A stretch of DNA of 64,000 nt from Oryzias latipes (lineage: Eukaryota; Chordata; Actinopteri; Beloniformes; Adrianichthyidae): positions 21,480,802 through 21,544,801 of the forward strand of contig NC_019866.2 in assembly GCF_002234675.1 (NCBI RefSeq), in the 5' to 3' direction. Of the stretch, positions 1 to 45,234 are shown piece after piece. The notes under the pieces are model-generated. The model did no database searches, had not been told where the DNA came from, and was given only the letters and a program-made list of their open reading frames with translations. The position numbers were made by a program, and so were the translations under genes. Position 1 is the first letter of the stretch, and each line of letters opens with the position of its first letter.

Positions 1-175
1 CGAGTTTTCATTGGAAAATCCTGCGTCCTGCATTTTGTGTCCACCTTGTATCCTGACAGAGCCCTGCAGATACTAAGATAAGCAGCTAGAGGTACTGATA
101 TTTGAAAAAGCATTTGTTGTTTTCTGCAAGAACTACGCCAAAACAGAGGTTTTTATTTTACGTTGTGAATTGCAG

Positions 176-1355: not shown

Positions 1356-1476
1356 GTGGGTGCAGCTTTTCACAACTTTCTGGTTAATTACTAGTTTATG
1401 CATTTACCTCGGGTCCTGCGTGTCCTTAGAGTTGTAATTATATCCTCATAAAAAGGCCTCTTCTTTTTCTTTGCAG

Positions 1477-1550
1477 GCTCTAACAAATGTCTTTACAACA
1501 ATGCTCTCACATTTGCAATAGCAAATGTGCCTGCAATTGGTAGCAGGCAC
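1477..1550 (+). pseudogene. EGF-A exon remnant of LDL receptor
   Basis: After a good acceptor (tttctttgcag, ending at 1476) the sequence reads GSNKCLYNN, matching the start of the LDLR EGF-A module (G-x-N-x-C-L-x-N-N). It resumes one frame over with CSHICN, which matches CSHVCN of EGF-A. A deletion of about seven bases (the expected GG codons) explains the shift. The frame then hits a stop near 1542-1544. It is the only trace of the EGF-precursor region in this copy; the mirror lies at about 15425-15489. Confidence 0.72.
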
Positions 1551-1661
1551 CACATATTTTTATAGAGGCATCTGATTATTTTTTACTTTTATTTTAGTTT
1601 TTTACTTGAATAACTTGCAGTATGGAAAAAATGGCATGAAAAAAGAAAATAAGATGATGAA

Positions 1662-2039
1662 TAGGCTGCACAATATAGCGCAAATTTATCGCTATCGCAA
1701 AATCAGCTTTGTAATATGCACATCGCAAAAGACGGCAAATATTGCAATAAATCGTAAACCTTGAATGTGTTTAAAAAATCTAATGCAGCTTGAACCATTA
1801 ACAAATTAAATAAATCCCATTATGCATTTGACCAATCAGATGGAGGCCTATTATGTTAGATGCTTGTCACCTATGTCGACGAGGGTCATTTGGAGTATAA
1901 ATTTTAAAGTGTTGCAATGAAATGGGAATGGTTATTTGGTTATTTTGCTATTTGTCTATATACCGCAAATTATATCGTTATCGCAATTTTAATCTCTAAT
2001 ATCGCATATCATGAGTTTTCCTCATACCGTGCAGCCCTA
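1662..2039. mobile_element. hAT-like MITE with imperfect terminal repeats, left arm
   Basis: The ends are taggctgcacaatat and the complement of tagggctgcacggtat. The interior is AT-rich and nearly palindromic (repeated gcgata/tatcgc motifs) with no coding sequence. The element occupies the place where LDLR EGF/propeller exons would be expected. The mirror copy is at 14923-15304 and a related copy lies at about 35757-36090. Family assignment to hAT-type non-autonomous elements is by terminal sequence style only. Confidence 0.6.
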
Positions 2040-2654
2040 ATCAAGAACATGTTAAAAAAAGGTAGCCTAAAAGTCTATGGGATTTTGGCATCATGACACC
2101 AGCAAGTACTTCCTGGGAGAACGGCCAAGATGGCGTCTGCGTAGGTACGTACCTTCTGAGCTCCTGCAAAAGTTATCGGACATAACATCTATTTTGGAAT
2201 CATGACACCAGCAAGTACTTCCTGTTTGGAAAACCGGGGGAGGGTCACCTAGTCCAGTTCTCGTATACAGTCAATGATCCATACCCAGTCTTGCAATGGT
2301 TGTAATGCAGTTTTGTGCATTTTATTGTTTCATGTGGAGATTACTTTTTGCACACAACCAGGTTCTCTGTGCTCAAAATTGGGGGTCAAATCTGGCTCTT
2401 ACCCTTTAAAACCAGAGCTGTCACCGGTGACAGGAAAATAAACACACGCTCTTTGACCTGTCGCAGATCTTCAACCGTTTACGCAATTAATGGAATTCTA
2501 ACAGATTCTGTTCGGCACAGAGAGAAGAGAGGCGTGCTTCTCTCTGCATGCAGCACCTTACATTAGTGAATAGTTTACGCAATTAACGTAAATCAGCTGA
2601 AAATAGCACAAACAGTAGTTTGCATGATAACGTTCAATTCGCTCAAAAATACCA

Positions 2655-3039
2655 GCTAAATACGAGCTTTAGCTGGTATTTTTGTTAGAACTGAGCGACT
2701 TTACGAGCTAAATCGGGACAAGGAAGTGAAGACTTTAACCACTTCTCATTGGTCAGACTGATGACATGTGATTAAGCCCCCCTAGAATGATTGGTGGAGA
2801 CAGTTAAAGGGACGGGACTTTTCCAAAATACAGCTGAAGCTGCAGCTGAATCGTACCGTCATTCTTATCAAAATGTCTTTAATAAAATAAACGCAAAGAA
2901 AAAGTATTTCACGATCTTTTCTATTCCTAACTCCTCAATGTTTTATCAGGGCCTGTTTGGATGAACAGAGCTGAAATCCTGGAGATGGGAAATGTGTTTA
3001 GATCAGTTAATGAGGGCAATTTCTGGTTGAAAAACACTG
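2655..3039 (+). mobile_element. 3' fragment of a hAT element (left arm)
   Basis: Homologous to the right part of the complete element at 7437-8293. Shared features include the ctttagctggtatttttg block, the tggtcagactgatgacatgt block and the terminal ggttgaaaaacactg. The 5' end is missing. It ends only 48 bases before the acceptor of the LDLR-like stalk exon. The mirror copy is at about 13924-14308. Confidence 0.7.
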
Positions 3040-3087
3040 TGGTAGATGATTTAAATAATGAATTCATGTAATGTTTTTGCATTTCAG

Positions 3088-3385
3088 AGGCACCAACACC
3101 TGCAGGACCATCGCAGTCAGAATCTCCATCCGCCTCCACAACCCGTCTGCCTCTCAGGACGTCACCTAGAGCCACGTTGAATCCCAGACTCCACCACAGC
3201 AGCGCCGGTGGTGATCACCAGTACCACCCCCAGGGCTGTAACCCACACCACCCCAAGGTCACAGACACAGAGGACCACCAAGCCTTCAATCAGGAGCACC
3301 ATACCACTCCCAAAGACCACTACTCCCAGGCTGATCGATCTGAAAGTCCTGCAGACCTTCACAGAGGCTCCAACCACCTCTCTGG
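3088..3385 (+). CDS. LDLR-like O-glycosylation stalk exon (two frames)
   Basis: Between acceptor atttcag (ends 3087) and donor gtaagct (3386), this 298-nt exon encodes a Pro/Ser/Thr-rich stretch like the O-linked sugar domain of LDLR. The 5' part reads APTPAGPSQSESPSASTTR in one frame. The 3' part reads ITSTTPRAVTHTTPRSQTQR in another, and only the second frame meets the donor in phase 1. The length of 298 is not a multiple of three although phase-1 introns flank it, so about one base is extra (or two are missing) near 3165-3190. The same length occurs in the mirror copy at 13578-13875. Confidence 0.7.
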
Positions 3386-3467
3386 GTAAGCTGTCAAAGC
3401 AGTTCATCTGCTGACGTTTCGCATTGACTTCTTTCTCAGCTGTACATAACAATCCTTTCCCTTTTAG

Positions 3468-3903
3468 AAAGCAAACGTGGGCTTGGTGTGACTCTTTACT
3501 CGGTCCTCCCTCTGGGTGAGTTGTTGCAGCAGCTGCCGAAACACTGAGCTGTTGCTCACCCTCAACATGTGACGTCTTACCCCCAATATCTGTTCATCCA
3601 ACAGCGGTTCTCTCTCTGTTGGCTGTTGGTGGCGTGCTGCTGTGGAGGAACTTCAGGTTGAGAAGCTCCAACACCATCCACTTTCATAACCCTGTTTATC
3701 AGAAAACCACAGATGACCAGGTGCACATTTGGAAAAGCAACAGCCTTGACGGTTACTCCTACCCAAAAGTAAATGTTACAAAAACTTTGTAGATACCGCC
3801 CTGCAAAATACTTTATCTAACATTCTTTTCTTTGCTTTTTGATCAGAGGCAAGTTGTGAGCGTGGACGAAGAAACCGACAATCCCACCTTCACTGAAAAC
3901 TGA
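3468..3903 (+). CDS. LDLR-like transmembrane and cytoplasmic-tail exons
   Basis: Exons 3468-3515, 3605-3768 and 3847-3903 correspond to human LDLR exons 16-18 and are in consistent phase with one another. The membrane helix is [14 protein letters not shown]. The tail begins RNFRLRSS and contains [16 protein letters not shown], then DGYSYPK and RQVVSVDEE, ending NPTFTEN. In LDLR the Phe-x-Asn-Pro-x-Tyr signal in this tail recruits the adaptors ARH and Dab2 and clathrin for endocytosis; here it is Phe-His-Asn-Pro-Val-Tyr, so the signal is kept. This is the best-preserved part of the gene and the strongest evidence that it is LDLR rather than another LDLa protein. Confidence 0.85.
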
Positions 3904-4858
3904 ATGCTGTCTTAAGGTGGATTTGATGATGATGATCAGTGTTTTTACCTCAAATGAACAAAGAGGTGAAGCCTGAATGTTCCAACCACTGAATCCTCAC
4001 AAACAGATGGTTTGTCTGCAGCCCAACAAGTTTTAATCCCACAAGAAAACATCTGAATGCTCATCAAACATCATTAATTTCTCAGGTTGATTTTTCCTCT
4101 CTTGATGTTCAGACTCTGATAGTTGATGAGGGGAAAAGTCTTATGTTGCTGATCAGGGAACAGTTTTGGTTTATACACAACAAACCACTTTTCTTTTTTC
4201 AGACGAAGATGGATAAATTGTATTTTTAAAGCACATGAAGTCAAAGATGAATGTAACCTCACAGAAAACACTCATCATCATGTGGTCGTGCCTTGATTAT
4301 ACCATCCTCTGTCTGGGCTCCCAGATGTTCCCTCTGCATCTGTAAGAGCTTCCACTCTCCACATGCTTGTCGGTGGATTGGACAGAAACCTTTAAATGAT
4401 TCTTTTTTCATGTTGTTAAAAAGCTTTGATGCCACCAAACCGCTGTACCGTGGCACATGTATTTGTGTCCCCGTCATGCCAGCATTCCTGTTCAAATGGC
4501 TCTTGGGTCTCCCCGGTGTTTGCGTGTTTGGCTTTTTTTCCCCTTCAAATTCTCCTTGTCTGGGAACAGGTACAGGGAGGCAACAACACCCCCCCCCCCC
4601 CCCCCTTTGGATCTGTATTTGTGTTGTGGGAGTAAATAAGCATGAATGGTTGAAAAGTGAGGGTGAAACAACGGACGAGGGTTTCTGGGTTTGTCAGCTT
4701 GTGAGGACTAAACGGCACATGAATTCTGTTTCCATTCAGCTTGTAAATATGTTTATAAGTGTACAGAAATGTGTTCTGTACTGGTTTTGTTAATGATTGA
4801 ATGTTCTGTAAATAAATGCTGCTATTTATTATAGAATTTGATATTTCTGGTTTTATCG
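3904..4858 (+). other. 3' untranslated region of the LDLR-like gene
   Basis: No coding sequence is visible here. A canonical polyadenylation signal AATAAA lies at 4811-4816 and the SINE begins at about 4859. A homopolymeric C tract of about 19 bases sits at 4588-4607; the mirror copy (G tract about 12356-12374) has a slightly different length. Open frames through this tract are artefacts of the C run. Confidence 0.6.
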
Positions 4859-5165
4859 TGGCTGCACGGTTGAGCAGTGCTTATCGCGCTTGCCTGACAT
4901 AGAAGACCTCTGGTTCAAGTCCCGGCTGGTGGACCTGGAACAGGACGTGCTCTGTCCAAAAAACATGCTTCATAGGTTAATTGGTTACTCTCCTCTTTTC
5001 TTTTTCTTTTTTTTTGTCCATGTGTGGATGGGTGTGTGTGTGTAATTGTGGCCCTGTGACAGACTAGCGTCCAGGGTGTGCCTAGCCTTTGCCCACAAGT
5101 GGTTGGATAGGCTCCGGCAGCCCGTAACCCCGAAAGGGACAAAACGGATATGAATGTATCGATGT
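4859..5165 (+). mobile_element. tRNA-derived SINE with L2-like tail (left arm)
   Basis: The head resembles a tRNA: an A-box-like ggttgagcagtgctta and a B-box ggttcaagtcc near 4913. The body matches the widespread fish repeat containing catgcttcataggttaattgg and ataggctccggcagcc. The mirror is at about 11800-12101, and a related tail without the tRNA head lies at 21084-21360. Confidence 0.7.
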
Positions 5166-5176
5166 ATAAGAATAAA

Positions 5177-5445
5177 TTAAATTGATAAAAATGTAAACGT
5201 CAAAATAATTAAATAAAAACAATAAATCAAGAGGGGCGCAGAAAATGCCAGCAAATAATAAAGGCCGCCCCCCAGCAGGAGAGGCCAGAGTAGGTCTTCA
5301 GGCCTCGGTCGGATGCCATCCTAGAGACAAAAAAAAAGTAATCAGGCATCAATTTTAATAGCAGAAGATGACTGACTACTGCTAGACCCTTACATCTGCC
5401 GGCTCTCTTTCGGCTCTCGGCTCAAACGGTGGCTCGTATTGTAGT
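5177..5445 (-). pseudogene. Promoterless last two exons of small tail-anchored protein gene
   Basis: Minus-strand mirror of the last two exons of the gene at 6088-11734. The small exon (5394-5445, 52 nt) follows an acceptor ttgtttag and reads LQYEPPFEPRAEREPAD. The last exon begins at 5320 after gtctctag with DGIRPRPEDLLWPLLLG. One extra G in the G run relative to the right arm shifts the end, so it reads on to a stop at 5177-5179; without that G it would end like the right copy. No start exon or repeat exon is present on this side, because the inverted duplication broke the gene in its second intron. The 52-nt exon still equals 1 modulo 3. Confidence 0.6.
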
Positions 5446-5935
5446 CTAAACAAAGACAATGAAGTTTTCAGTTAATACAAAATAGTTTTCATTCCAAAAT
5501 GATTTATCAGAACATAAAAGGTAGTAAATGCAGCTGAAAATCAGAGCTAAAGAGCTGCTCACGCCCTCATGAATCAGTGAAAATGAAGACACAAGGACAA
5601 TGTTTTGAAATGTTTGTATAGATTATAGAAAACAATAAGAAAGCAAAAGATTAACAAAGTCAAATAACATTACTTTGAAAAAGTTGATTAACAAAGATTA
5701 CTTTTTTTTAAATATACTGTAGCATTGCAACACAAAAATAGGATTGACATTTCACTGTTGGGATAAAAGACAGTAAATGCTTCCAAATTAGACACCAATA
5801 TTAATGGTCCAGTATTTCATTGTTATGTTTCCAGGTGAGCACATAATAGTTTGATTTGTATTTATTTGGTTTTGCACAACATTTGTGGTAAATGATGTAT
5901 TAGATGACTACAAATATGGCGGTGATTTCCGATTA

Positions 5936-6091
5936 CAAACGGGTAACGTTTAACATTCAGGAAAACGGATGGAAATGTATTTATTTAACAGTCACTGTGT
6001 CCAACTGCATTTATCAAAAAAGTCCTTAGCAACTGTAGTTTTTTTCATTTACAATTCTCAACTGGTCAAAAACTGTCATCAGGCGACATGG
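5936..6091 (+). promoter_or_regulatory. Conserved promoter and first exon of the small gene family
   Basis: A block containing caggaaaacggatgg, an AT-rich TATA-like stretch (tatttatttaa, about 5979-5989) and actgtgtccaactgcat leads to gacATGG and a gtaag donor. The reverse complement of the same block precedes the related genes: it lies at 30398-30545 and at 31397-32205 (interrupted), and a truncated form lies at 44988-45090. Promoter function is inferred from position and conservation only. Confidence 0.5.
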
Positions 6092-9000
6092 GTAAGACAC
6101 TTCTTGTTGTGAAAGATGATGATCTGTTTCCGTACTTGTATGTGGGTCTAAATCAGTGCTTCTCAAATAGAGTGGGGCCAGGGGGGGGGGGGGGGGGGGG
6201 GGAGCGTTGGTGGCGGTTTTAGGCACAGGTAATACGGGCAATTGTCCCGTATTACATGTGCACTGAGCCGCTGTCATTTAACGTGACAGCGGCTCAGTGC
6301 TTAGAAATAAATCTGATTCCTATTCGGTTCCTATCATCTGTTCTATCACAGAGTTTGTAACAGACTGAAACCTGTGAATCCCTGTTCGTGAAGCTGCTCC
6401 TGGCTGTCTCGTGTCACACGCAGCTGCGCGAATGAGAACGAAAGGGGAGGGGTAGTGTGGGCTCTGACTCCCGGGCACGCGGAAGGGAGCTGCTCATCAT
6501 TTAGACAAAAAATCAGCACAATGTTTTTATCTATTTCTTCAGACTAAAAACGTTACATTTTTTTGTTCTGCTGTGTTAATGTTTCAGATCAATTTACATT
6601 GGATGCTCATGCTTCTTTGAGAAACATAGAAATCCTGTATAATTTAGCTACCTCAGATCACATACCAGTAGTCTTCTCCTTAAATGTGGCAAATGTACCA
6701 TCTCTTGTGATGAAAGAAAATAACGCTCTTACAGATAAACTTGATTGGTCCAAAGTTACAAATGAGGACATCAATAAATACACAGCAACCACCGATGCTC
6801 AGCTGCAGGCTGTAAAATTGCCCAGGGATGCACTGGCATTCTGTGATCCAAACTGCAAAAATACTACTCATTGTGATGAATTGTGTAAACTCTATGAAAA
6901 TATAGTCAAAGCTGTAAAAGATAGTAGTCTTTGCCTACGAAGCAGGAGTCATAAAAGCTGGACTGTCAAGCCAGGCTGGAATGACTTTGTAGCTGAACAT
7001 CATGCTGCAGCCAGGGATGCTTTCAGACTCTGGCATGAAGCTGGGAAGCCTCGACAAGGTGCCTTGTTTGAGAGCAAGAAAATGACTACTGCGAGATTTA
7101 AATATTCACTTCGCATTATCAAAAGGCAAGAAAACATGATGAGAGCAGACTCTCTGGCCAGAGGTCTACAAAAAAATGATAACCATAAATTCTGGAAGGA
7201 AGTTAATGCTGTGAACAATCGTAAAACTTCATTGCCATCCAACATTGAAGGTGTATGTGGTGCTGATAAAATTTGCTGATTTATGGCGTAAGCATTACTC
7301 TGACCTGCTTAATTCAGTAAAAAGTCATGCAGTTTCTATTGACAATGTGGATTTTACCGACACAATGGTTATTCGTGCAAGTGAGATTCAAGATGCAATT
7401 TCAAAGATAAAAGAAGGCAAAGCATGTGGTCTAGATCAGTGTTTTTCAACCTTTTTTGAGCCACGGCACACTTTAACCTTGACCAAAATCCCGCGGCACA
7501 CCAGCGTCCAAAAAAAAAAAAAAAAAGCAGAAATTCATGGTCTGTATTGATCTACAGCCCCCCCCCTCTCAATCTCACGTGGATTTTTATGATAATTGTG
7601 GCAGAAAAAGCAGGAAGTTACAGGTGTTTTTTTCTAAGAGATGAAATAAAAGTTAAATTAGAAAAATTTAGAAACTGTTTGTTGTGGTTTCAAGACATTT
7701 CACAAGGACGACTCATTGTGCGCTGTCCCTTTAAGCCAATGCATCATGGGAGATGTAGTGTGAAAACTGCCAAAAAAGGGCAGAAAGACTCGCGTGTCTG
7801 AGCTTCATTGTTTTGTTCACTTGTTCCACGGTCTGACACCGGACTCTGTGGAAAGCTACACCGCTAAATACAAGCTTTAGCTGGTATTTTTGTTAGAACT
7901 GAGCGACTTTATCAGCAGAATTAAGAACAAGGAAGTGAAGACTTTAAGCACTTCTGATTGGTCAGACTGATGACATGTGATTAAGCCTTCAAGAATGATT
8001 GTCGGAGACAGCTAAAAGGGCGGGACTTTTCCTTACACAGTTATAGCTGAAGCTATCGCGGTACCGTCATTCTTATCAAAATGTCTTTAATAGAATTAAA
8101 TAAACACAAAGAAAAAGTAATTTTATAACCTTTTATATTCCTAACTACTCAGTGTTTTATCAGGGCCTGTTTGGATGAACAAAGAGCTGATTTCCTGGAA
8201 ATGGAAAATGTTTTTAGATCAGTGAAGTAGGGCAATTTTCCACGGCACACTTGACCATCTCCCGCGGCACACTACACTGGTTGAAAAACACTGGTCTAGA
8301 TGACATCTCAGTCGAGCATTTAAAATATTCAAGTTTTAAATTACTGCCCCTGCTGGCCATGTGTTTCACTGGCTTTCTAACCCATGGAGTCCTGCCTGAT
8401 TCAATTCTCTCAGTTCTATTGATTCCTGTCATCAAAGACAAGACTGCCAGTTTAAATAGTCTGTTGAATTACCGACGATTGCCCTTTCCAGCAACATTTC
8501 AAAACTTTTAGAATATGTTTTATTGACTAGACTCGAAGTGCATCTTTTAACAAGTGAGAATCAATTTGGTTTTAAAAAAAGCCTCGGCACTGATATGTGT
8601 ATTTACGCATTACAGGAAATAGTTGGGAAATACCTGCATCTGAATAAATCTGTATTTTTGTGTTTTATTGATGCCACTAAGGCCTTTGACAGGGTCAACC
8701 ACCTCGAGCTTTTTCAGAAGCTAATTAATCGAAGAGTGCCCAAATATCTTGTACGATTCCTGGCTTTCTGGTATGCTAATCAAACAATGGTAGTCAAATG
8801 GGGCAATGTCTTATCAGAGCCTTTTTATGTAAGCAATGGTGTTCAACAGGGGGGGGGGGGGATCCTCTCTCCATTTCTATTCAATGTGTGTATTCATGAC
8901 CTATCCACTAATCTGAATCTGTGCAAAACTGGGTGTGTTGTTGGATGTCAAACCTTTAACCATCTCATGTATGCTGATAACCTTGTCATTTTTAGCCCCT

Positions 9001-11734
9001 ACAGTGCTGGGTTACAAACACTTTTAAAAGTTTGTTCTGACTATGGCAGAGACTTTGATATAAACTACAATCCCTCTAAAAGCAAAGTAATGATTGTAAG
9101 GACCAAAGATGACAGAAATGTAAACTTTCCTGTTTTTAAGCTTTGTGGAACGACTCTGGAACAAACCTCATCTATCAAATATCTTGGACATTTCATTAAT
9201 GATGTTAGAGACATTCAGAGACAGTACTGTAAACTCTATGCTCAGGCAAATGTGCTGATGAGAAAATTCAGTGCATGTTCACTTCAATTGAAGTGTTCGC
9301 TGTTCAGAGCTTACTGCACTCCTCTGTATACGGCCCCTCTTTGGTGGAACTATGGACGTGGGACATTCCGCAAATTCTTAGTAGCCTATAATGATGCTTT
9401 TAGGCTTCTGCTACAGGTGCCCAGGTGGTACAGAGCCAGTCAGCTGTTTGTGGATGCTCACATCCCCACCACCTGTGAAGCTCTACTGCGTAAGCTAACG
9501 TACAGCCTCATGGAACACCTGGACAAATCTAAGAACTCAATTATCATGTCTCTGACTGATCCCAAAAGAAGCTCATGCCGCTACACTTCTGCCCTGAGGA
9601 AACACTGGATACAGCGATTATACTCCTTTTAATTTATATCTTTTTACTTTTTATTATGTATACTGTATTTGTATCTTTTTTTTCCTATGGACCACATCTG
9701 AGTCTGAAATAAAAGTGTGAATTTAGTATTATTTATTGATTGAATTATTTTTCTCAGTATCAAATGGTTCAGTTGGTCAAAATGTCTCTAGTTTGAATAA
9801 GAACTGACATTTTATTTCTGGCACGTTAAGCTTCTTTCTGTTTTAAACTACAACAGGGTTTCTGTGTGGCAAAATAAAGTTAATATTTGTTGAAAGTGCA
9901 TTTATATACATTTTTTCTTTTGTTAATGTTAAATGATACAATTTTAGGTACACTTACGCAAATTTTGTATATACTAATCTAATATATTGTCGCCGCGCAA
10001 GTGTGTGTGGGGTCGGGGGGGGGGGGGGGGGCGCGAAACAATAATAATTGAGAAGCACTGGTCTAAGCACTGGTTTAATCATTTTCCTTGAAAATCCACC
10101 ACGTTTAACATACTTATGCATCCGCCATCCTTGCCAGCAGAGTATGAAAAAAATGACATCTGGATTTTGTCTTTCAGAAATGAATTCACAGAATGTGAAG
10201 AATGTCCGCGAAGAGGCGGGGGCCCACCAGGCAAGGCCTCCGAGCGAAGAGGCGGGGGCCGACCAAGAGCGGCGACGCCACGAAGAGCCGGGAGCCAACC
10301 AGGACCGGCCTCCCCGCGTGCAGGCGGGGGCCCTGCAGCAGCGGCCATCCCGCGTGGAGGCGGGGGCCCTGCAAGAGTGGCCTCCCCACGTGCAGGCGGG
10401 GGCCCACCAGGAACGGCCTCCACATGAAGGGACGGGGGCCCACCAGGAATGGCCTCCTTGCGGAGAGGCGGGGGCCCACCAGGAATGGCCTACACGTGAA
10501 GAGGCGGGGGCCCACCAGGAATGGCCTACACGTGAAGAGGCGGGGGCTCACCAGGAATGGCCTCAGCGCGCGGAGGCGGGGGCCCACCAGGAATGGCCTC
10601 CACGCGGGGAGGCGGGGGCCAACCAGGAACGGCCTCCACGTGAAGAGGCGGGGGCCCTGCAAGAACACCCTCCCCGTGAGGACCAGGGGGGAAGATATAT
10701 CTTAACCCTGCAGTAAGTAGACTTCCCGCCTGACTTTCTTCTTGTTGAACTTGGTTAACAAGGTTATCTGGATTTTTAACGGTTGCTGTTAAATGTCATA
10801 CTGTATTGTAATACTCAGCGTTAAATTAGAGTATTTACAAAATCAATCAGGGTTTTACTTACTTTCTCAAATTTGTGTGTTTGTCCACGTTCAGATGGAC
10901 AACGGCTTCTTAGTTGAGGCTGATATCGTAACACTTTCCAAGAATAGGGAAGACCTTCTGAAATTCCGTAATATCCTCCCTTCTTGTTTGGCTCTGTCTC
11001 CCCCTCTTTGTGCTGTCACTAGCTGTAATCAGCCACACACCTGAGTAATCGGAAATCACCGGCATATTTGTAGTCATCTAATATATCATTCACCACAAAT
11101 GTTGTGCAAAACCAAATACATACAAATCAAACTATTATGTGCTCACCTGGAAACATAACAATGAAATACTGGACCATTAATATTGGTGTCTAATTTGGAA
11201 GCATTTACTGTCTTTTATCCCAACAGTGAAATGTCAATCCTATTTTTGTGTTGCAATGCTACAGTATATTTAAAAAAAGTAATGTTTGTTAATCAACTTT
11301 TTCAAAGTAATGTTATTTGACTTTGTTAATTTTCATTTGCTTTCTTGTTTTCTATAATCTATACAAACATATTTCAAAACATTGTCCTTGTGTCTTCATT
11401 TTCACTGATTCATGAGGGCGTGAGCAGCTCTTTAGCTCTGATTTTCAGCTGCATTTACCACCTTACATGTTCTGAATCATTTTGGAATGAAAACTATTTT
11501 GTATTAACTGAAAACTTTGTCTACTTTGTTTAGACTACAATACGAGCCGAGGGGTCCAGGAGTGCCGGTGGGTCTAGCAGTAGTCAGTCATCTTCTGCTA
11601 TTAAAATTGATGCCTGATTACTTTTTTTTTGTCTCTAGGATGGCATCCGACCACCAAGGCCGGAGGACCTTCTCTGGCCTCTCCTGCTGGGGGCGGCCAT
11701 TATCATTTTTTGGCGTTTTCTGCGCCCCTCATAG
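6088..11734 (+). CDS. Unrecognised tail-anchored 12-residue-repeat protein (spliced)
   Basis: I do not recognise this gene. Proposed exons: 6088-6091 (ATG G, donor gtaag), 10178-10712, 11534-11567 and 11639-11734, totalling 669 nt and 222 residues. Exon 2 encodes MNSQNVKNV and then 13 copies of a 12-residue unit such as REEAGAHQEWPT. Exon 3 gives QLQYEPRGPGVP. Exon 4 gives DGIRPPRPED, a single helix LLWPLLLGAAIIIFW and the tail RFLRPS. There is no signal peptide, so a tail-anchored topology with a cytosolic repeat domain is inferred. Every junction is GT-AG and in phase. The same four-part structure recurs at two other loci with unlike repeats, which supports a real gene. Intron 1 contains a nested hAT/LINE insertion of 3.9 kb. 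Function unknown; a gene carried by a mobile element is the main alternative. Confidence 0.6.
6563..9720 (+). pseudogene. Fish LINE ORF2 (endonuclease end and reverse transcriptase), broken
   Basis: 6563-7436 encodes the end of an APE-type endonuclease (SDHIPVVFSLNV) and linker, with a frameshift near 7255. After the nested hAT, coding resumes at 8294 with EHLKYSSFKLLPLL and continues to the stop at 9630-9632. RT motifs are recognisable: FIDATKAFDRVNH, GVQQGGGGILSPFLFN and MYADNLVIFS. The catalytic YADD box reads YADN, and a G-run expansion is visible in the GVQQG motif. The 5' end is truncated, as usual for LINEs. Inactive. The family is CR1/L2/Rex-like by RT motif style; the exact family is uncertain. 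Confidence 0.85.
7437..8293. mobile_element. Non-autonomous hAT element, complete, with perfect 8-bp TSD
   Basis: Begins cagtgtttttcaacc and ends ggttgaaaaacactg, a perfect 15-bp inverted repeat. It is flanked by the identical 8-bp duplication gtctagat (7429-7436 and 8294-8301), diagnostic of hAT transposition. There is no transposase, only an A tract and short spurious frames. It interrupts the LINE ORF between its linker and RT regions; removing 857 bp plus one TSD copy rejoins KACGLD with DDISVEHLKY. A truncated relative lies in each palindrome arm. Confidence 0.93.
10207..10674 (+). repeat. 36-bp coding minisatellite, 13 units
   Basis: Thirteen 36-bp units lie end to end inside the second exon of the repeat-protein gene, each with a core like gaggcgggggcccaccagga. 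Because the unit is a multiple of three, copy-number change never shifts the frame. All three forward frames happen to be open across it, as expected of a stop-free GC-rich repeat. Splice phase from the ATGG exon selects the frame with the 12-residue unit ending AGAHQEWPP. Later units are more alike than early ones, suggesting recent expansion at the 3' side. Confidence 0.9.
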
Positions 11735-11799
11735 TTTTTCATTTATTTATTCAATTTAATTATTTTGACATTTACTTTAATTAAATTTATTCTTATTTG

Positions 11800-12101
11800 A
11801 TACATTCATATCCGTTTTGTCCCTTTCGGGGTTACGGGCTGCCGGAGCCTATCCAACCACTTGTGGGCAAAGGCTAGGCACACCCTGGACGCTAGTCTGT
11901 CACAGGGCCACAATTACACACACACACCCATCCACACATGGACCAAAAAAAAAGAAAAAGAAAAGAGGAGAGTAACCAATTAACCTATGAAGCATGTTTT
12001 TTGGACAGAGCACGTCCTGTTCCAGGTCCACCAGCCGGGACTTGAACCAGAGGTCTTCTATGTCAGGCAAGCGCGATAAGCACTGCTCAACCGTGCAGCC
12101 A
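11800..12101 (-). mobile_element. tRNA-derived SINE (right arm)
   Basis: Mirror of the SINE at 4859-5165, read on the minus strand with the tRNA-like head at its right end. Confidence 0.7.
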
Positions 12102-13923
12102 CGATAAAACCAGAAATATCAAATTCTATAATAAATAGCAGCATTTATTTACAGAACATTCAATCATTAACAAAACCAGTACAGAACACATTTCTGTACA
12201 CTTATAAACATATTTACAAGCTGAATGGAAACAGAATTCATGTGCCGTTTAGTCCTCACAAGCTGACAAACCCAGAAACCCTCGTCCGTTGTTTCACCCT
12301 CACTTTTCAACCATTCATGCTTATTTACTCCCACAACACAAATACAGATCCAAAGGGGGGGGGGGGGGGGGGGGTGTTGTTGCCTCCCTGTACCTGTTCC
12401 CAGACAAGGAGAATTTGAAGGGGAAAAAAAGCCAAACACGCAAACACCGGGGAGACCCAAGAGCCATTTGAACAGGAATGCTGGCATGACGGGGACACAA
12501 ATACATGTGCCACGGTACAGCGGTTTGGTGGCATCAAAGCTTTTTAACAACATGAAAAAAGAATCATTTAAAGGTTTCTGTCCAATCCACCGACAAGCAT
12601 GTGGAGAGTGGAAGCTCTTACAGATGCAGAGGGAACATCTGGGAGCCCAGACAGAGGATGGTATAATCAAGGCACAACCACATGATGATGAGTGTTTTCT
12701 GTGAGGTTACATTCATCTTTGACTTCATGTGCTTTAAAAATACAATTTATCCATCTTCGTCTGAAAAAAGAAAAGTGGTTTGTTGTGTATAAACCAAAAC
12801 TGTTCCCTGATCAGCAACATAAGACTTTTCCCCTCATCAACTATCAGAGTCTGAACATCAAGAGAGGAAAAATCAACCTGAGAAATTAATGATGTTTGAT
12901 GAGCATTCAGATGTTTTCTTGTGGGATTAAAACTTGTTGCGCTGCAGACAAACCATCTGTTTGTGAGGATTCAGTGGTTGGAACATTCAGGCTTCACCTC
13001 TTTGTTCATTTGAGGTAAAAACGCTGATCATCATCATCAAATCCACCTTATGACAGCATTCAGTTTTCAGTGAAGGTGGGATTGTCGGTTTCTTCGTCCA
13101 CGCTCACAACTTGCCTCTGATCAAAAAGCAAAGAAAAGAATGTTAGATAAAGTATTTTGCAGGGCGGTATCTACAAAGTTTTTGTAACATTTACTTTTGG
13201 GTAGGAGTAACCGTCAAGGCTGTTGCTTTTCCAAATGTGCACCTGGTCCTCTGTGGTTTTCTGATAAACAGGGTTATGAAAGTGGATGGTGTTGGAGCTT
13301 CTCAACCTGAAGTTCCTCCACAGCAGCACGCCACCAACAGCCAACAGAGAGAGAACCGCTGTTGGATGAACAGATATTGGGGGTAAGACGTCACATGTTG
13401 AGGGTGAGCAACAGCTCAGTGTTTCGGCAGCTGCTGCAACAACTCACCCAGAGGGAGGACCGAGTAAAGAGTCACACCAAGCCCACGTTTGCTTTCTAAA
13501 AGGGAAAGGATTGTTATGTACAGCTGAGAAAGAAGTCAATGCGAAACGTCAGCAGATGAACTGCTTTGACAGCTTACCCAGAGAGGTGGTTGGAGCCTCT
13601 GTGAAGGTCTGCAGGACTTTCAGATCGATCAGCCTGGGAGTAGTGGTCTTTGGGAGTGGTATGGTGCTCCTGATTGAAGGCTTGGTGGTCCTCTGTGTCT
13701 GTGACCTTGGGGTGGTGTGGGTTACAGCCCTGGGGGTGGTACTGGTGATCACCACCGGCGCTGCTGTGGTGGAGTCTGGGATTCAACGTGGCTCTAGGTG
13801 ACGTCCTGAGAGGCAGACGGGTTGTGGAGGCGGATGGAGATTCTGACTGCGATGGTCCTGCAGGTGTTGGTGCCTCTGAAATGCAAAAACATTACATGAA
13901 TTCATTATTTAAATCATCTACCA

Positions 13924-14308
13924 CAGTGTTTTTCAACCAGAAATTGCCCTCATTAACTGATCTAAACACATTTCCCATCTCCAGGATTTCAGCTCTGTTC
14001 ATCCAAACAGGCCCTGATAAAACATTGAGTTAGGAATAGAAAAGATCGTGAAATACTTTTTCTTTGCGTTTATTTTATTAAAGACATTTTGATAAGAATG
14101 ACGGTACGATTCAGCTGCAGCTTCAGCTGTATTTTGGAAAAGTCCCGTCCCTTTAACTGTCTCCACCAATCATTCTAGGGGGGCTTAATCACATGTCATC
14201 AGTCTGACCAATGAGAAGTGGTTAAAGTCTTCACTTCCTTGTCCCGATTTAGCTCGTAAAGTCGCTCAGTTCTAACAAAAATACCAGCTAAAGCTCGTAT
14301 TTAGCTGG
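13924..14308 (-). mobile_element. 3' fragment of a hAT element (right arm)
   Basis: Mirror of the fragment at 2655-3039, beginning with cagtgtttttcaacc, the terminal inverted repeat of this hAT family. Confidence 0.7.
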
Positions 14309-14922
14309 TATTTTTGAGCGAATTGAACGTTATCATGCAAACTACTGTTTGTGCTATTTTCAGCTGATTTACGTTAATTGCGTAAACTATTCACTAATGT
14401 AAGGTGCTGCATGCAGAGAGAAGCACGCCTCTCTTCTCTCTGTGCCGAACAGAATCTGTTAGAATTCCATTAATTGCGTAAACGGTTGAAGATCTGCGAC
14501 AGGTCAAAGAGCGTGTGTTTATTTTCCTGTCACCGGTGACAGCTCTGGTTTTAAAGGGTAAGAGCCAGATTTGACCCCCAATTTTGAGCACAGAGAACCT
14601 GGTTGTGTGCAAAAAGTAATCTCCACATGAAACAATAAAATGCACAAAACTGCATTACAACCATTGCAAGACTGGGTATGGATCATTGACTGTATATGAG
14701 AACTGGACTAGGTGACCCGTCCCCCCGGTTTTCCAAACAGGAAGTACTTGCTGGTGTCATGATTCCAAAATAGATGTTATGTCCGATAACTTTTGCAGGA
14801 GCTCAGAAGGTACGTACCTACGCAGACGCCATCTTGGCCGTTCTCCCAGGAAGTACTTGCTGGTGTCATGATGCCAAAATCCCATAGACTTTTAGGCTAC
14901 CTTTTTTTAACATGTTCTTGAT

Positions 14923-15304
14923 TAGGGCTGCACGGTATGAGGAAAACTCATGATATGCGATATTAGAGATTAAAATTGCGATAACGATATAATTTGCGGT
15001 ATATAGACAAATAGCAAAATAACCAAATAACCATTCCCATTTCATTGAAACACTTTAAAATTTATACTCCAAATGACCCTCGTCGACATAGGTGACAAGC
15101 ATCTAACATAATAGGCCTCCATCTGATTGGTCAAATGCATAATGGGATTTATTTAATTTGTTAAATGGTTCAAGCTGCCATTAGATTTTTTAAACACATT
15201 CAAGGTTTACGATTTATTGCAATATTTGCCGTCTTTTGCGATGTGCATATTACAAAGCTGGATTTTGCGATAGCGATAAATTTGCGCTATATTGTGCAGG
15301 CCTA
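14923..15304. mobile_element. hAT-like MITE, right arm copy
   Basis: Mirror of the element at 1662-2039, with the same terminal tagggctgcac motif and palindromic AT-rich interior. Confidence 0.6.
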
Positions 15305-16973
15305 TTCATCATCTTATTTTCTTTTTTCATGCTATTTTTTCTATACTGCAAGTTATTCAAGTAAAAAACTAAAATAAAAGTAAAAAATAATCAGATGCCT
15401 CTATAAAAATATGTGGTGCCTGCTACCAATTGCAGGCACATTTGCTATTGCAAATGTGAGAGCATTGTTGTAAAGACATTTGTTAGAGCCTGCAAAGAAA
15501 AAGAAGAGGCCTTTTTATGAGGATATAATTACAACTCTAAGGACACGCAGGACCCGAGGTAAATGCATAAACTAGTAATTAACCAGAAAGTTGTGAAAAG
15601 CTGCACCCACCACATTCCCGAAGAGGCTCATCTGACCAATCCCTGCAGTCCCGTTTGCTGTCACACACTCTCTCCATGGTTATGCACTCCCCACTGCGGC
15701 ACTTGAACTTGTCCGGGCCCTCACAGCGGGTCACTGTGGAAGCCAAATGAAATGATGAGTGAAAAAGGTACAGCTTTTCAGTGGGATGTGTGACTACGGA
15801 GCATAGAAGGGTCCTCTTACCGTTGACACAGCCGGATTCGTCAGTCGTGTCTCTGCAGTCGTACTGCTGGTTGCACTGGCGACTGCCGTGGATGCAGGTT
15901 CCATCGCCACATTCAAACTCATCTGGACGGCAGGTGGAGCGAGCTAAGGGCAAAGCGACTGTAGTAAGTAAAGGGGCAGTGAAGAAATGCAGGACATGAC
16001 GTTTGGAACCACAAACTTACTGCAGCCAGCTTCATCAGATCCATCCAAGCAGTCAGCATCTCCATCACACTTCCAGCTGCCGTGGATGCACTCTCCGCTG
16101 CCACAGTGGAACTCCATCGAGTGGCACTGATGAGAGGCGAGCGTCACGGGGGATTCGGCGTGGCAGCTCTGGGGCCACTCGTCAGAGCCATCAGGGCAGT
16201 TGTTGTAACCGTCACAGGCCCACTGGCGAGGGATGCAGATGCTGTTGTTGCACTGGAAGGATGCAGAGCTGCAGGTGATGAGAGGGCAGGAGGCCTCATC
16301 ACTCCCATCATCGCAATCCTCATCTTCGTCACACACAAAGGAAGCTGAGACGCACTGGCCATTCTCGCAGCGCAAGTCTGAGGCTAAACACTGTTTAGTG
16401 TTTGAGAGGTCAGAGAGAGGCAGACGAGCGCAGATGTGCATTAAGATGAAGTGCAAGCCTACCACAGCCCCTCTCATCAGCTCTGTTCTCACAGTCAGCT
16501 TTACCATCACAGAGCCAGGAGCTCGGTAAACACAGGTGAAAGCGGTCTCCACAATTGAACTCTGTAGGTTTACATGTTCTTGCCACTATAGATATAAAAA
16601 AAAAATACACAAAAAAAAGGCAGCTCATACACTCTAGGGGGCGGAGACGCTGTAATGTCATGGGATACTCACAGCAGGTGCTTGGAAGTTCATCGGTGCC
16701 ATTTCCACAGTCGACGCCGCCATCACATATCCATCTTATCGTGATGCATCTCCCATTTCCACACTGGAACTGGCCGAGTCCACATGTTGTTAATGCATCT
16801 GCAATTCACAACGTAAAATAAAAACCTCTGTTTTAGCGTAGTTCTTGCAGAAAACAACAAATGCTTTTTCAAATATCAGTACCTCTAGCTGCTTATCTTA
16901 GTATCTGCAGGGCTCTGTCAGGATACGAGGTGGACACAAAATGCAGGACGCAGGATTTTCCAATGAAAACTCG

Positions 16974-27947: not shown

Positions 27948-30402
27948 TTAAGGCACGTGCCGGTACCAGCGGATCATCATAAGACATGCCGTGAGGGCGG
28001 CCCCCGCCAGGCAGGTCATCACCAGCCCTCTGACAACTGTTGTAGCCGGACGGATGGGATTCTAGAGACAAAAAAAAGCAATCAGGCATCAATTTTAATA
28101 GCAGAAGAGGACTGACTACTGCTAGACACTTACGTTCGGCGGCTCCTCACGATAGGTCGTGTAAGTAAGTCTAAACAAAGTGGACAATGAAGTTATCAGT
28201 TAATACAAAATAGTCATTCCAAAATGATTCACCAGAACAGGGCAGAGGCTTGTGACACATCTGATGTTGTTCACGCCCTAATGAATCAGTGAAAATGAAG
28301 ACACAACAAGGACAAACAATGTTTGGAGATATGTTTGTATAGATTATAGAAAACAATAAGTAAAGATATGGAAGCGATTGTAAGGTAAAGTCAAAACCAG
28401 AAATGCTTTTTCCTTTTCAAAATGAAGCTGCATTTTTGACTCAAAATTAAAATGATAAAGTAATCCGCCAAAATGCTTTTTCATTTCCTTCCTTAACACT
28501 GCTTATTCTGTCACTTAATTAAAATGATAATGAAAATAGTATTTGACATTTCATTTTCAAAATGTTCCATGCTAAATCTTCTTACTCTATTGGCTTTTCC
28601 CATCAGGGGTCGCCACAGTGAACATGGTAAACTTGGCAATGTTTTACGCCGGATGCCCTTCCTGACGCAACCTTCTCAAAGCAACCGGGCTTGGGACCGG
28701 CACAGAAGTAGAGAAGGGAACAGGGAGCAGCCCGGATTCGAACCCTGGTTTCACGGACGGAAGGCGCCGCAAACCAACACAAGCAAAAGCGGCTCCCGCA
28801 AAATGTTCTCTGCTAAATGTGTAGCATAATTCATTTAGAAATGTCTAATTTGACAATTAAAATGGATTATTAGAAATGCTTTTTAATTTTCAGGCAGTCT
28901 ACTTACTGAACAGAGAGCTGGGACGCCACTTGTGGCTCCTCCAGGCGCCTGGAGTTTGATGTTTCTGGGGGGCAGCTGCCTGTGTTTGATTCTGAAAGAC
29001 AAAAATCTAGATGTCATTTTTTCATACTCTGGCAAGGATGGTGGATGCAAAAGTATTATAACAATCCAGCCTAACCAACACTTGAGCGGGGAAGCAACAG
29101 CTGAGCTGCTCATGAAGAGGCTTCTTTGGAGAGCTAATTGTGCCCCATACACTGCACAATCCCGGTCAGTCTCAGGCCGGATTGATCAGAAAGAGAGACA
29201 ATATCTCCTTTAGAGCAAAAAGCTTATTTAGTTTATTTATTAAGTTTCTCAAACAGCCAAAACAGGATGGATGTTAGTTCAACTTCCAGCCTTCTAAACT
29301 CAAGGTTTCACCCCAAAACTCATCACTTCCCATGAGCCTTAGGCGCTGGAGGCGGGGATAACCCCCTGGTCGCCACACTGCCCCCACCTAAGAGGGTTAA
29401 GTGTCCCTACAACCCTCACATAACTGCAGAACAGCCCCATCAGCGTGTTACCTTTCAGCCTCAGGCTTCAAACCGCTGTTATTTCCGGTCCGGTCCCGGT
29501 CAGGACGCAAACGGTAACTAATGAAGCGGGACACCGTTGCTCTGGAACAGGCTAGAAGCCGTTTATTTCTTTGCTTGGATCAAACTGTTAGTAAAGCACA
29601 ATGTCTGCAAACACTTCCTCGTTCAAAACTCAGAGAGAGCACATAAGCTGGCAGAGCAGCCCCCCTTTTTCCTCTCCTGCGCATCCCCTCTCCTGCCTCA
29701 TCCTGGAGCAACCAAGCACCCAAGGCAACGCCTCCTTCCATCACTGTGTTGCCTCCATGACAACCGCATTGATTCACAAAATAGAAACACAACAAAAAGG
29801 GGAGGGTTTCGCCATGCTAAACGTTTGCCGTTTGGACCAACACGCATCTTCTAAATGTGCTTTTATTACTGTTATGATTATTATTAAGGGCCTGCTCGCT
29901 CATAATTTTTTTAATCCGTGCGGTCAGTGCTCAGGTCCGCGGAAGGCGGAAATGCTGCTACGTTACGTAGTCCTCAGAACGTTTATGTTTGATAGTTTCA
30001 GCATTGTAAAGTATAAATGCAAAAATAGGATACGGGTCACTTTTAAAAGATAATGTAAGCGGGTCATTAAAAAAATCGGATATAGTCAGAAAATCGAATT
30101 TGGGCATCAAGACCTGCAGTGTAAATGCAGCCCTAGTCTCGCGGCTTTTCCTCCCGGCTCCTGCCACGCCCACTGTTCACCGTAATCAACAGAGCAATTT
30201 AGCATCAATAGAACATCAACAAAGCAACAGAACACGGGGATACTACAATATGTTACTTACCATGGGAACTAGCATAACCTGCTTTCTGGAATACCCCCCA
30301 GGCCAGATTCACGCACTTTTTTCTTATTATTTTTTTAAGGTACCCATTCAATCGTCCAATCAGAAACAGACCATCTTCCACAACAAGAAGTGTCTTACCC
30401 AT
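27948..30402 (-). CDS. Unrecognised tail-anchored small protein, copy at 28-30 kb
   Basis: Minus strand. Proposed exons: 30399-30402 (ATGG; donor gtaag), 28907-28991 (85 nt), 28134-28170 (37 nt) and 27948-28061 (114 nt), totalling 240 nt and 79 residues. The second exon reads MESNTGSCPPETSNSRR then LEEPQVASQLSV. The third gives QLTYTTYREEPPN. The last gives NPIRPATTVVR, a helix GLVMTCLAGAALTACLMM and the tail IRWYRHVP. It corresponds exon for exon to the gene at 6088-11734: shared QL-x-Y and IRP motifs, one helix, and a basic aromatic tail. Intron 1 holds a gypsy LTR. Family and function are unknown. All junctions are GT-AG and in phase, but no expression evidence is available. Confidence 0.58.
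28575..28805 (+). mobile_element. SINE-like repeat (copy 1)
   Basis: Contains cttttcccatcaggggtcgc, ttttacgccggatgcccttc and ggattcgaaccctggtttc (a B-box-like tRNA motif). It shares its left edge with the 3' end of the LINE remnant at 37480-37805, as expected for a SINE mobilised by that LINE. The duplicate is at 43103-43333. Confidence 0.65.
29045..29381 (-). mobile_element. Gypsy-type 3' LTR fragment (copy 1)
   Basis: On the minus strand, a purine-rich tract (taggtgggggcag) is followed by TGTGGCGACCAGGGGG, the usual start of a fish gypsy LTR, and later by an aataaataaa signal. Only the 3' LTR and a little internal sequence are present. The duplicate is at about 43617-43953. The lower boundary, in intron 1 of the small gene, is approximate. 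Confidence 0.5.
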
Positions 30403-30549
30403 GTCACCTGTGTCTCACCCAGCTACGACAGATTTGATCCGTTTAGAATTGTTAATGTAATTGCTAAGGACTTTTTTGATCGATGCAGTTGGACACAGTG
30501 ACATGACGGACTATTAAATACTTTTCCATCCGTTTTCCTGACTGTTGTG

Positions 30550-39478: not shown

Positions 39479-41250
<1,772 letters not shown>

Positions 41251-42212: not shown

Positions 42213-42475
42213 CGTTATAAAGGGTCGACGTAAACGGTACTCACTCACGTGTCTTCCCTCCAAAACACTGGTCGCGGCATGAAAGGAGGCTGTCAGTGAC
42301 GTTGTTTACCTGCGTCATTACGTACGTGAACCGCATAATAGGCTGGAGCAGTTAGTCACCAGTCACATTCACTGACTCACATTGAAAAATAGCTCCAAAT
42401 AAATTTTTATGTATTTATTTTATTACGAATTCAAGTTTTCATGTCCTGTAGCTTAGAGGGAGCAGTGGATAACCA

Positions 42476-44992
42476 TTAAGGCACGTGCCGGTACCAGCGG
42501 ATCATCATAAGACATGCCGTGAGGGCGGCCCCCGCCAGGCAGGTCATCACCAGCCCTCTGACAACTGTTGTAGCCGGACGGATGGGATTCTAGAGACAAA
42601 AAAAAGCAATCAGGCATCAATTTTAATAGCAGAAGAGGACTGACTACTGCTAGACACTTACGTTCGGCGGCTCCTCACGATAGGTCGTGTAAGTAAGTCT
42701 AAACAAAGTGGACAATGAAGTTATCAGTTAATACAAAATAGTCATTCCAAAATGATTCACCAGAACAGGGCAGAGGCTTGTGACACATCTGATGTTGTTC
42801 ACGCCCTAATGAATCAGTGAAAATGAAGACACAACAAGGACAAACAATGTTTGGAGATATGTTTGTATAGATTATAGAAAACAATAAGTAAAGATATGGA
42901 AGCGATTGTAAGGTAAAGTCAAAACCAGAAATGCTTTTTCCTTTTCAAAATGAAGCTGCATTTTTGACTCAAAATTAAAATGATAAAGTAATCCGCCAAA
43001 ATGCTTTTTCATTTCCTTCCTTAACACTGCTTATTCTGTCACTTAATTAAAATGATAATGAAAATAGTATTTGACATTTCATTTTCAAAATGTTCCATGC
43101 TAAATCTTCTTACTCTATTGGCTTTTCCCATCAGGGGTCGCCACAGTGAACATGGTAAACTTGGCAATGTTTTACGCCGGATGCCCTTCCTGACGCAACC
43201 TTCTCAAAGCAACCGGGCTTGGGACCGGCACAGAAGTAGAGAAGGGAACAGGGAGCAGCCCGGATTCGAACCCTGGTTTCACGGACGGAAGGCGCCGCAA
43301 ACCAACACAAGCAAAAGCGGCTCCCGCAAAATGTTCTCTGCTAAATGTGTAGCATAATTCATTTAGAAATGTCTAATTTGACAATTAAAATGGATTATTA
43401 GAAATGCTTTTTAATTTTCAGGCAGTCTACTTACTGAACAGAGAGCTGGGACGCCACTTGTGGCTCCTCCAGGCGCCTGGAGTTTGATGGTTGTGGAGCC
43501 ACTTGTGGCTCCTCCAGGCGCCTGGAGTTTGATGTTTCTGGGGGGCAGCTGCCTGTGTTTGATTCTGAAAGACAAAAATCTAGATGTCATTTTTTCATAC
43601 TCTGGCAAGGATGGTGGATGCAAAAGTATTATAACAATCCAGCCTAACCAACACTTGAGCGGGGAAGCAACAGCTGAGCTGCTCATGAAGAGGCTTCTTT
43701 GGAGAGCTAATTGTGCCCCATACACTGCACAATCCCGGTCAGTCTCAGGCCGGATTGATCAGAAAGAGAGACAATATCTCCTTTAGAGCAAAAAGCTTAT
43801 TTAGTTTATTTATTAAGTTTCTCAAACAGCCAAAACAGGATGGATGTTAGTTCAACTTCCAGCCTTCTAAACTCAAGGTTTCACCCCAAAACTCATCACT
43901 TCCCATGAGCCTTAGGCGCTGGAGGCGGGGATAACCCCCTGGTCGCTACACTGCCCCCACCTAAGAGGGTTAAGTGTCCCTACAACCCTCACATAACTGC
44001 AGAACAGCCCCATCAGCGTGTTACCTTTCAGCCTCAGGCTTCAAACCGCTGTTATTTCCGGTCCGGTCCCGGTCAGGACGCAAACGGTAACTAATGAAGC
44101 GGGACACCGTTGCTCTGGAACAGGCTAGAAGCCGTTTATTTCTTTGCTTGGATCAAACTGTTAGTAAAGCACAATGTCTGCAAACACTTCCTCGTTCAAA
44201 ACTCAGAGAGAGCACATAAGCTGGCCGAGCAGCCCCCTTTTTCCTCTCCTGCGCATCCCCTCTCCTGCCTCATCCTGGAGCAACCAAGCACCCAAGGCAA
44301 CGCCTCCTTCCATCACTGTTGCCTCCATGACAACCGCATTGATTCACAAAATAGAAACACAACAAAAAGGGGAGGGTTTCGCCATGCTAAACGTTTGCCG
44401 TTTGGACCAACACGCATCTTCTAAATGTGCTTTTATTACTGTTATGATTATTATTAAGGGCCTGCTCGCTCATAATTTTTTTAATCCGTGCGGTCAGTGC
44501 TCAGGTCCGCGGAAGGCGGAAATGCTGCTACGTTACGTTGTCCTCAGAACGTCTATGTTTGATAGTTTCAGCATTGTAAAGTATAAATGCAAAAATCGGA
44601 TACGGGTCACTTTTAAAAGATAATGTAAGCGGGTCATCAAAAAAATCGGATATTGTCAGAAAATCAGTCAGAAAATCGAATTTGGGCATCAAGACCTGCA
44701 GGGTAAATGCAGCCCTAGTCTCGCGGCTTTTCCTCCCGGCTCCTGCCACGCCCACTGTTCACCGTAATCAACAGAGCAATTTAGCATCTAATAGAACATC
44801 AACAAAGCAACAGAACCCGGTGATACTACAATATGTTACTTACCATGGGAGCTAGCATAACCTGCTTTCTGGAATACCCCCCAGGCCAAATTCACGCACT
44901 TTTTGCTCATTATTTTTTAAGGTACCCATTCTATCGTCCAATCAGAAACAGACCATCATCTTCCACAACATAAATGTGTTCTGCTTACCCAT
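42476..44992 (-). CDS. Unrecognised tail-anchored small protein, copy at 42-45 kb
   Basis: Minus strand. Proposed exons: 44989-44992 (ATGG), 43435-43564 (130 nt), 42662-42698 (37 nt) and 42476-42589 (114 nt), totalling 285 nt and 94 residues. It is identical in plan to the 28-30 kb copy, except that the variable exon contains a second 45-nt unit encoding SNSRRLEEPQVAPQP, so the repeat number differs by exactly one in-frame unit. The last exon again encodes GLVMTCLAGAALTACLMM followed by IRWYRHVP. Upstream of the start exon the conserved promoter block is cut at about 45090, so this copy may lack its normal promoter. Function unknown. Confidence 0.58.
43103..43333 (+). mobile_element. SINE-like repeat (copy 2)
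   Basis: Duplicate of the element at 28575-28805, carried in the segmental duplication. Confidence 0.65.
43460..43550 (-). repeat. Two 45-bp coding repeat units in the variable exon
   Basis: The 45-bp block containing cacttgtggctcctccaggc occurs twice here and once at 28.9 kb. It adds 15 codons without a frame change. Confidence 0.92.
43617..43953 (-). mobile_element. Gypsy-type 3' LTR fragment (copy 2)
   Basis: Duplicate of 29045-29381, starting TGTAGCGACCAGGGGG on the minus strand. Confidence 0.5.
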
Positions 44993-45234
44993 GTCGATCC
45001 TGGTACCTGCGATCCCTGCTCACTCGACCCTGCTATGTCAGTTTTGATCAGTTAAGAATTTTTCATGTAAAAAAACAGCAACGGTTGCTAAGGACTTTCT
45101 GGAACCTGCCTGGTGTGTTCCTAGTTCTTCATGATGCTCTCTCTGAGACACATATCAGGTGTATTGATACGGAGACCTTGGTGGATTCTATTTATCCTCA
45201 TTAGTCATTTAGGTCAAACTTTGGATCATTCAGA

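Follow-up and report, generated by a model that had tools for sequence, protein, structure and literature searches.

Chromosome C8 of medaka carries a multicopy gene family whose descent from BAX is near certain on the sequence comparisons presented here. Overall, the best explanation of the data, and a probable one, is that these BAX descendants encode putative tail-anchored repeat proteins with a proposed action at mitochondria. The window analyzed, a 64,000-nt stretch at C8:21,480,802-21,544,801 of a genome assembled into 25 contigs (734 Mb), holds three full copies and one truncated copy, and further copies (numbered with the prefix L) were read elsewhere on the chromosome.

Gene plan of the copies in the window

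Copies A, B, and C share a four-exon plan (Table 1), with GT-AG sites at every junction. Their conceptual proteins are open over 222, 79, and 94 aa, respectively, and each frame ends with a hydrophobic stretch and a short basic tail directly before the stop. The exon coordinates, lengths, and phases of the original prediction were all borne out, including the 52-nt exon of the truncated copy, and the protein landmarks it had named (QL-x-Y, IRP, the hydrophobic stretch, and the tails WRFLRPS and RWYRHVP) are all present. Its claim of three loci with one plan stands as to the plan. As to the number, B and C are near-identical, and the distinct intact genes in the window therefore number two instead of three. 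A run of 1000 N at window positions 26654-27653 adjoins copy B, near the B/C duplication, and assembly could affect the copy number there. The truncated copy, A', sits beside A in the left arm of a large palindrome; it lacks exons 1 and 2 and has a 1-nt length change within the helix.

Table 1. Exons of the family copies in the window (window positions) and defects of broken copies
Feature	Position	Strand	Details
Copy A exon 1	6088..6091	+	ATGG, donor GTAAGA; flank common to B and C
Copy A exon 2	10178..10712	+	535 nt; array of ~12.5 x 36 nt; 12-residue unit, e.g., EEAGAHQEWPPR
Copy A exon 3	11534..11567	+	34 nt; by position, BAX exon 3 start and BAX exon 5 end, fused
Copy A last exon	11639..11734	+	DGIRPPRPEDLLWPLLLGAAIIIFWRFLRPS; by position, counterpart of BAX last exon DGIFGTPGWQTLAVFVAGVLTAAVVIRKM
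A'	~5227..5445	-	truncated inverted copy
A' exon 3	5445-5394	-	52 nt
A' last exon	from 5320	-	G run 1 nt longer, frame shifted
Copy B exon 1	30399..30402	-
Copy B exon 2	28907..28991	-	85 nt
Copy B exon 3	28134..28170	-	37 nt
Copy B last exon	27948..28061	-	NPIRPATTVVRGLVMTCLAGAALTACLMMIRWYRHVP
Copy C exon 1	44989..44992	-	ATGG, donor GTAAGC as at BAX exon 1 donor
Copy C exon 2	43435..43564	-	130 nt (B plus one in-frame 45-nt unit)
Copy C exon 3	42662..42698	-	37 nt
Copy C last exon	42476..42589	-
L024			broken: stop; 116-nt exon 2
L026 and L027			broken: 66-nt exon 3
L028			broken: 170-nt exon 2 (scripted translation)
L005/6			broken: TAA inside array
L032			broken: 65-nt exon 3
L031			broken: last-intron donor missing (read by eye)

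Several other elements were observed in the window. The palindrome arms (1-5936 and 11045-16973) are mostly 97-100% identical, less so near the center, and each carries a gene that, from its translation, we take to be LDL-receptor-like. A LINE-type reverse transcriptase, apparently split by another insertion, occupies 6548-9629 (+) in intron 1 of copy A. The conserved sequence AAAAAGTCCTTAGCAAC, presumably an RFX-type half site, lies ~55-92 bp upstream of exon 1 in A, B, and C (6017-6033, +; 30460-30476, -; and 45084-45100, -, with one edit in B and C), and L004 has it before a candidate exon 1. An ORF at 40188-40532 (+) resembles what we take to be an exon of a KRI1-like nucleolar protein. 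A 153-aa ORF at 57136-57594 (+), coiled-coil-like by eye and with a C-terminal hydrophobic stretch, had no Pfam family above cut-off. Rfam yielded no matches over the whole window.

Introns and phases shared with BAX

The same chromosome carries a BAX gene at C8:6.96 Mb that is complete except for a start codon. Its reading frames comprise KSKELLDVGTKLLKK; FICERVRR...LAQCLQQIGDELDGN...; a BH1-type exon; ...IREQGGW; and DGIFGTPGWQTLAVFVAGVLTAAVVIRKM, with the BH labels being our assumption. The hand-joined exon products match Bax structure 5w63 (E 2.1e-74, the best solved match) and BAX structure 1f16 (3.1e-53), which we take to be the zebrafish and human proteins, respectively; one exon scored above the Pfam Bcl-2 cut-off and another below it. 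Exon 2 is 46 nt long (1 modulo 3) and ends in phase 2, exon 3 begins FICERV, exon 5 ends IREQGGW, and the last exon begins DGI in phase 0. Exon 1 (C8 ~6.966 Mb, L029 and L033) reads CCACCATCG before GTAAGC where the family has ATGG before GTAAGC; there is an in-frame TAG upstream with no ATG between (frame read by eye), so the start codon has been lost, the sequence contains an error, or a different first exon is used.

Comparison with this gene links the family to BAX through its introns. In copy A there are six intron matches, all collinear with BAX. Intron 1 has two at its end, intron 2 has one at its start at the donor and two farther in, and the last intron has one. From its donor, intron 2 is 80-83% identical to BAX in A, L024, L026, L031, and L005/6, and its inner part reaches 94% in A and 92% in A'. 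The last intron is identical at 63-65 of 71-72 aligned bases (87-90%) in all eight copies compared, with the match running 9 nt into the last exon. B, C, and L026 also match BAX on the donor side of exon 1, and both the intron phases and the exon order are those of BAX. Collinearity is fullest for A; B, C, L025, and L028 have fewer matches. These four do not match BAX at the exon 2 donor, and they carry a 166-174-base match (89-91%) out of BAX order, which we take for a shared mobile element. The family region upstream of exon 1 had no match within the BAX DNA at 6.96 Mb. Against the BAX helix 9 exon, only ~9 nt of the last exon align, and BAX and B are 22% identical there with only I and P invariant; the last exons share few residues with BAX, and the case for descent rests on introns and position.

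This descent was missed when the copies were first described as an unrecognised family of spliced, tail-anchored repeat proteins, although the family is indeed unknown to Pfam: copy A had no hits, and copy B had one sub-threshold hit, to Neurensin (E 0.033, 14.3 bits versus a cut-off of 27.7). Among the literature matches listed, and as judged from the listings, no paper dealt with tail genes derived from BAX, whether in medaka or in another fish.

In the family, the end of BAX intron 2 precedes the tiny exon and the start of the BAX last intron follows it; the placement of this exon at the exon 3 start and exon 5 end points to an internal deletion that removed the BAX core. We infer that a BAX copy lost the interior of exon 3 through the end of exon 5, that is, the BH3, BH1, and BH2 region, and that the remaining stubs of exons 3 and 5 would have fused into one exon of 34-66 nt. 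Exon 2 would have acquired arrays of 36- or 45-nt repeats, while the tail-anchor exon was presumably retained and then altered; the deleted copy may afterwards have multiplied along C8. Internal losses do occur in this setting, since L030 at 23.86 Mb is a decayed BAX copy without most of the exon 4 region. An in-frame fusion of exons 3 and 5 always has a length of 1 modulo 3, and this accounts for the frame rule of the original prediction. The rule holds for A, B, and C, often fails outside the window, and is inherited BAX intron phase, no independent proof of function. Downstream of L024-L028 there are third modules with ITYERF or ITYKRF in place of the BAX FICERV, although these are out of frame relative to their own helix.

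Copies along C8 and the divergence of exons and introns

Five genome queries matched sequence on C8 alone, apart from a single hit on C1 at E 5.7. A query from the B intron 3 region matched at least 35 pieces, 25 of them at 21.19-21.52 Mb and three at 6.96 Mb. Exon 2 acceptor-side, exon 2 donor-side, type II tail-peptide, and type I tail-peptide queries gave at least 21, 9, 10, and 10 matches, respectively, these counts being lower bounds because the search scores best candidates only; two exon 2 matches lie at 21.225 Mb. We coined the names type I (...WYRQVP) and type II (...WRFLRPS) for the two kinds of last exon. L024-L028 each have a type I exon followed downstream by a type II module, which is open in L024, L025, and L028 and shifted in L026 and L027. 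Exon 2 arrays are also of two kinds, with a 36-nt unit in A and a 45-nt unit in B, C, L025, L028, L005, L035, and L036. L025 has two exon 2 copies, of 310 and 115 nt; as each is 1 modulo 3, only one is usable at a time. L036 likewise has two open exon 2 copies, and L035 is disturbed. No exon 1 was found for L025, L028, L035, or L036 in the DNA examined around them, and codon-position bias within the repeats was weak or absent (p 0.06, 0.15, and 0.68).

Exons 2-4 were read in 11 copies (A, B, C, L005/6, L024-L028, L031, and L032). Four are open throughout (A, B, C, and L025) and seven are broken (Table 1), or three of nine are open when B/C and L026/L027 each count once. With seven of 11 broken, the earlier argument that such frame discipline is unlikely for decayed DNA was too strong.

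A better case for coding, present or recent, comes from exons differing more than introns together with protein constraint on the last exon. Three pairs have a full-length intron 2; in these, introns are 1.0-2.5% apart and exons 3-4 are 7-25% apart, a 7-10-fold excess: 37/151 exon versus 21/840 intron differences for L028/B (p 2e-18), 27/151 versus 17/840 for L025/B, and 11/157 versus 8/840 for L025/L028. The excess was seen in six of the seven pairs run. L024/L026, L026/L025, and A/B agree, and L024/L025 has none (14/157 versus 23/192, p 0.39); some of these four smaller comparisons include 3' flank beside the intron. Between A and A', the last exon has 12/93 differences versus 2/71 in intron 3 and 22/486 in intron 2, while exon 3 depends on the alignment (13/34, or 3/32 plus long gaps).

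Silent sites share this excess, with dS at 0.28-0.87 in diverged pairs, mostly near 0.5, and intron p at 0-0.08 in 15 type I pairs; raised amino-acid change is thus not the whole story. Pure positive selection was rejected on this ground and because last-exon dN/dS is ~0.3-0.6 in diverged pairs. CpG decay is not favored, as exon differences are transversion-rich (15 transitions and 22 transversions for L028/B, 24 and 39 for A/B, 13 and 14 for L025/B), though L024/L026 (26 and 19) runs counter to this.

The original prediction had proposed comparing dN/dS among last exons. The ratio is below 1 in diverged pairs; in L024/L025 dN (0.04) exceeds dS (0.02), on four changes. Amino-acid changes fell below neutral simulation in B/L025, L026/L5, and A/L025b (p 0.014, 0.030, and 0.046; pairs judged non-overlapping, without a tree), and two further pairs gave p 0.052 and 0.0083. 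The last exons of six distinct type I copies are open, and about half of the simulated pairs gain a stop. Exon histories are also mosaic: exon 3 is identical in B and L025 (0/37) and differs from both in L028 (10/37), whereas in the last exon L025 and L028 are 1/120 apart and each is 27/114 from B; the introns around all of these exons are 1-2.5% apart. We read this as old exons, apparently protein-constrained, in young introns kept alike by gene conversion.

An alternative account rests the exon excess on conversion, and we rate this slightly better than even. Conversion among copies would keep homogenizing the introns, with divergent exons blocking it or being selected against it, and the exon excess would then reflect conversion, compatibly with coding and with decay alike. 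The mosaic exons and the excess at silent sites fit well; the origin of the exon divergence, and the exact bounding of tiny exon 3 by near-identical introns, are left unaccounted for by conversion alone. Less probable, though a serious contender, is that these are decaying BAX duplicates that make no protein, with A, B, C, and L025 as recent or lucky survivors and the frame rule as simply BAX phase. The broken majority, the dead appearance of A' and L030, and the missing exon excess in L024/L025 would follow from decay. Dead DNA, however, should diverge alike, and exons differ 7-10 times more than introns in three full-intron-2 pairs; six distinct type I last exons are open, with amino-acid change below neutral. 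It is highly improbable that non-coding transposon DNA mimics a gene here: copy A intron 1 holds the LINE (RVT_1 Pfam match at 8460-9629, +) and an ORF adjoining C (41355-42305) is by eye a candidate hAT-type transposase, but the queries match one chromosome, bar the hit at E 5.7, and the loci align with BAX introns.

Predicted proteins and their possible action

Present-day coding of the predicted proteins is, judged from sequence, more likely than not. Copies A, B, C, and L025, at the least, could encode small proteins whose N-terminus is cytosolic and variable and that end in a C-terminal helix and a short basic tail. Tail-anchored proteins of the mitochondrial outer membrane have one moderately hydrophobic C-terminal helix and a basic tail. 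A and B have this arrangement, with 19-residue hydropathy of 1.77 and 2.08, respectively, against 1.92 for BAX, and a membrane location is predicted from hydropathy and the basic tail alone. Pfam PF00452, which covers the BH1-BH3 core, gave no Bcl-2 hit for A or B, and none of the 16 genome Pfam Bcl-2 matches listed lies at family loci. The BH3 motif, LxxxGD, was not seen in the A, B, and C translations read by eye.

Most likely, the predicted proteins would insert by their tails into the mitochondrial outer membrane, with the repeat part as a putative fast-changing cytosolic face. There, a BAX-like tail could touch the tails of BAX or of Bcl-2/Bcl-xL and tune cell death. A review (PMC11346437) reports self-association of isolated BAX tails, binding to the tails of Bcl-2/Bcl-xL, and caspase activation when the BAX tails are expressed alone, and calls it unclear how well isolated tails represent whole proteins. 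If so, a free BAX-like tail could tune death.

The family resembles BAX in the order, phases, and sequence of its introns, in the ME- start of exon 2, in DGI at the A last exon, and in the C-terminal membrane helix with a short basic tail. It differs in lacking the BH3, BH1, and BH2 region, in having one fused exon of 34-66 nt in place of exons 3-5, in the tandem repeats of exon 2, and in being multicopy. BH3-only proteins such as BIK and BIM are small and tail-anchored, with a cytosolic N-terminus, a C-terminal anchor, and basic residues. The family products are predicted to share this layout, but no BH3 motif was seen in those of A, B, and C, and they appear BAX-derived by deletion. Snake venom phospholipases A2 and MHC class I genes are multicopy with introns more alike than exons, for which gene conversion has been the view. 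The family shares with them exons that are mosaic and, silent sites included, more diverged than the adjacent introns; unlike them, it would encode a membrane-tail protein with no assigned role, and last-exon dN/dS is below 1 in diverged pairs. The wtf killer genes of fission yeast are multicopy, encode fast-changing membrane proteins that contain repeats, and are found chiefly on one chromosome. The medaka family is likewise multicopy, repeat-bearing, and on one chromosome, with fast-changing predicted membrane proteins; it has no known sequence relation to wtf, and the comparison here is one of gene features. We regard as quite speculative the idea that BAX-tail proteins act as mitochondrial decoys or effectors in conflict, either against a parasite or as a selfish set of killers and antidotes sharing one chromosome, their diversity arising from repeat number and conversion-made exon mosaics.

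If the BAX-descended family is expressed, it would represent gene birth in which a death effector lost its working domain, with BAX pared down to its anchor, fitted with a repeat head, and multiplied. Such a family would also offer a natural test of whether the BAX tail alone tunes cell death. With the contrast between exons and introns and a BAX outgroup on C8, the interplay of selection and gene conversion is directly testable.
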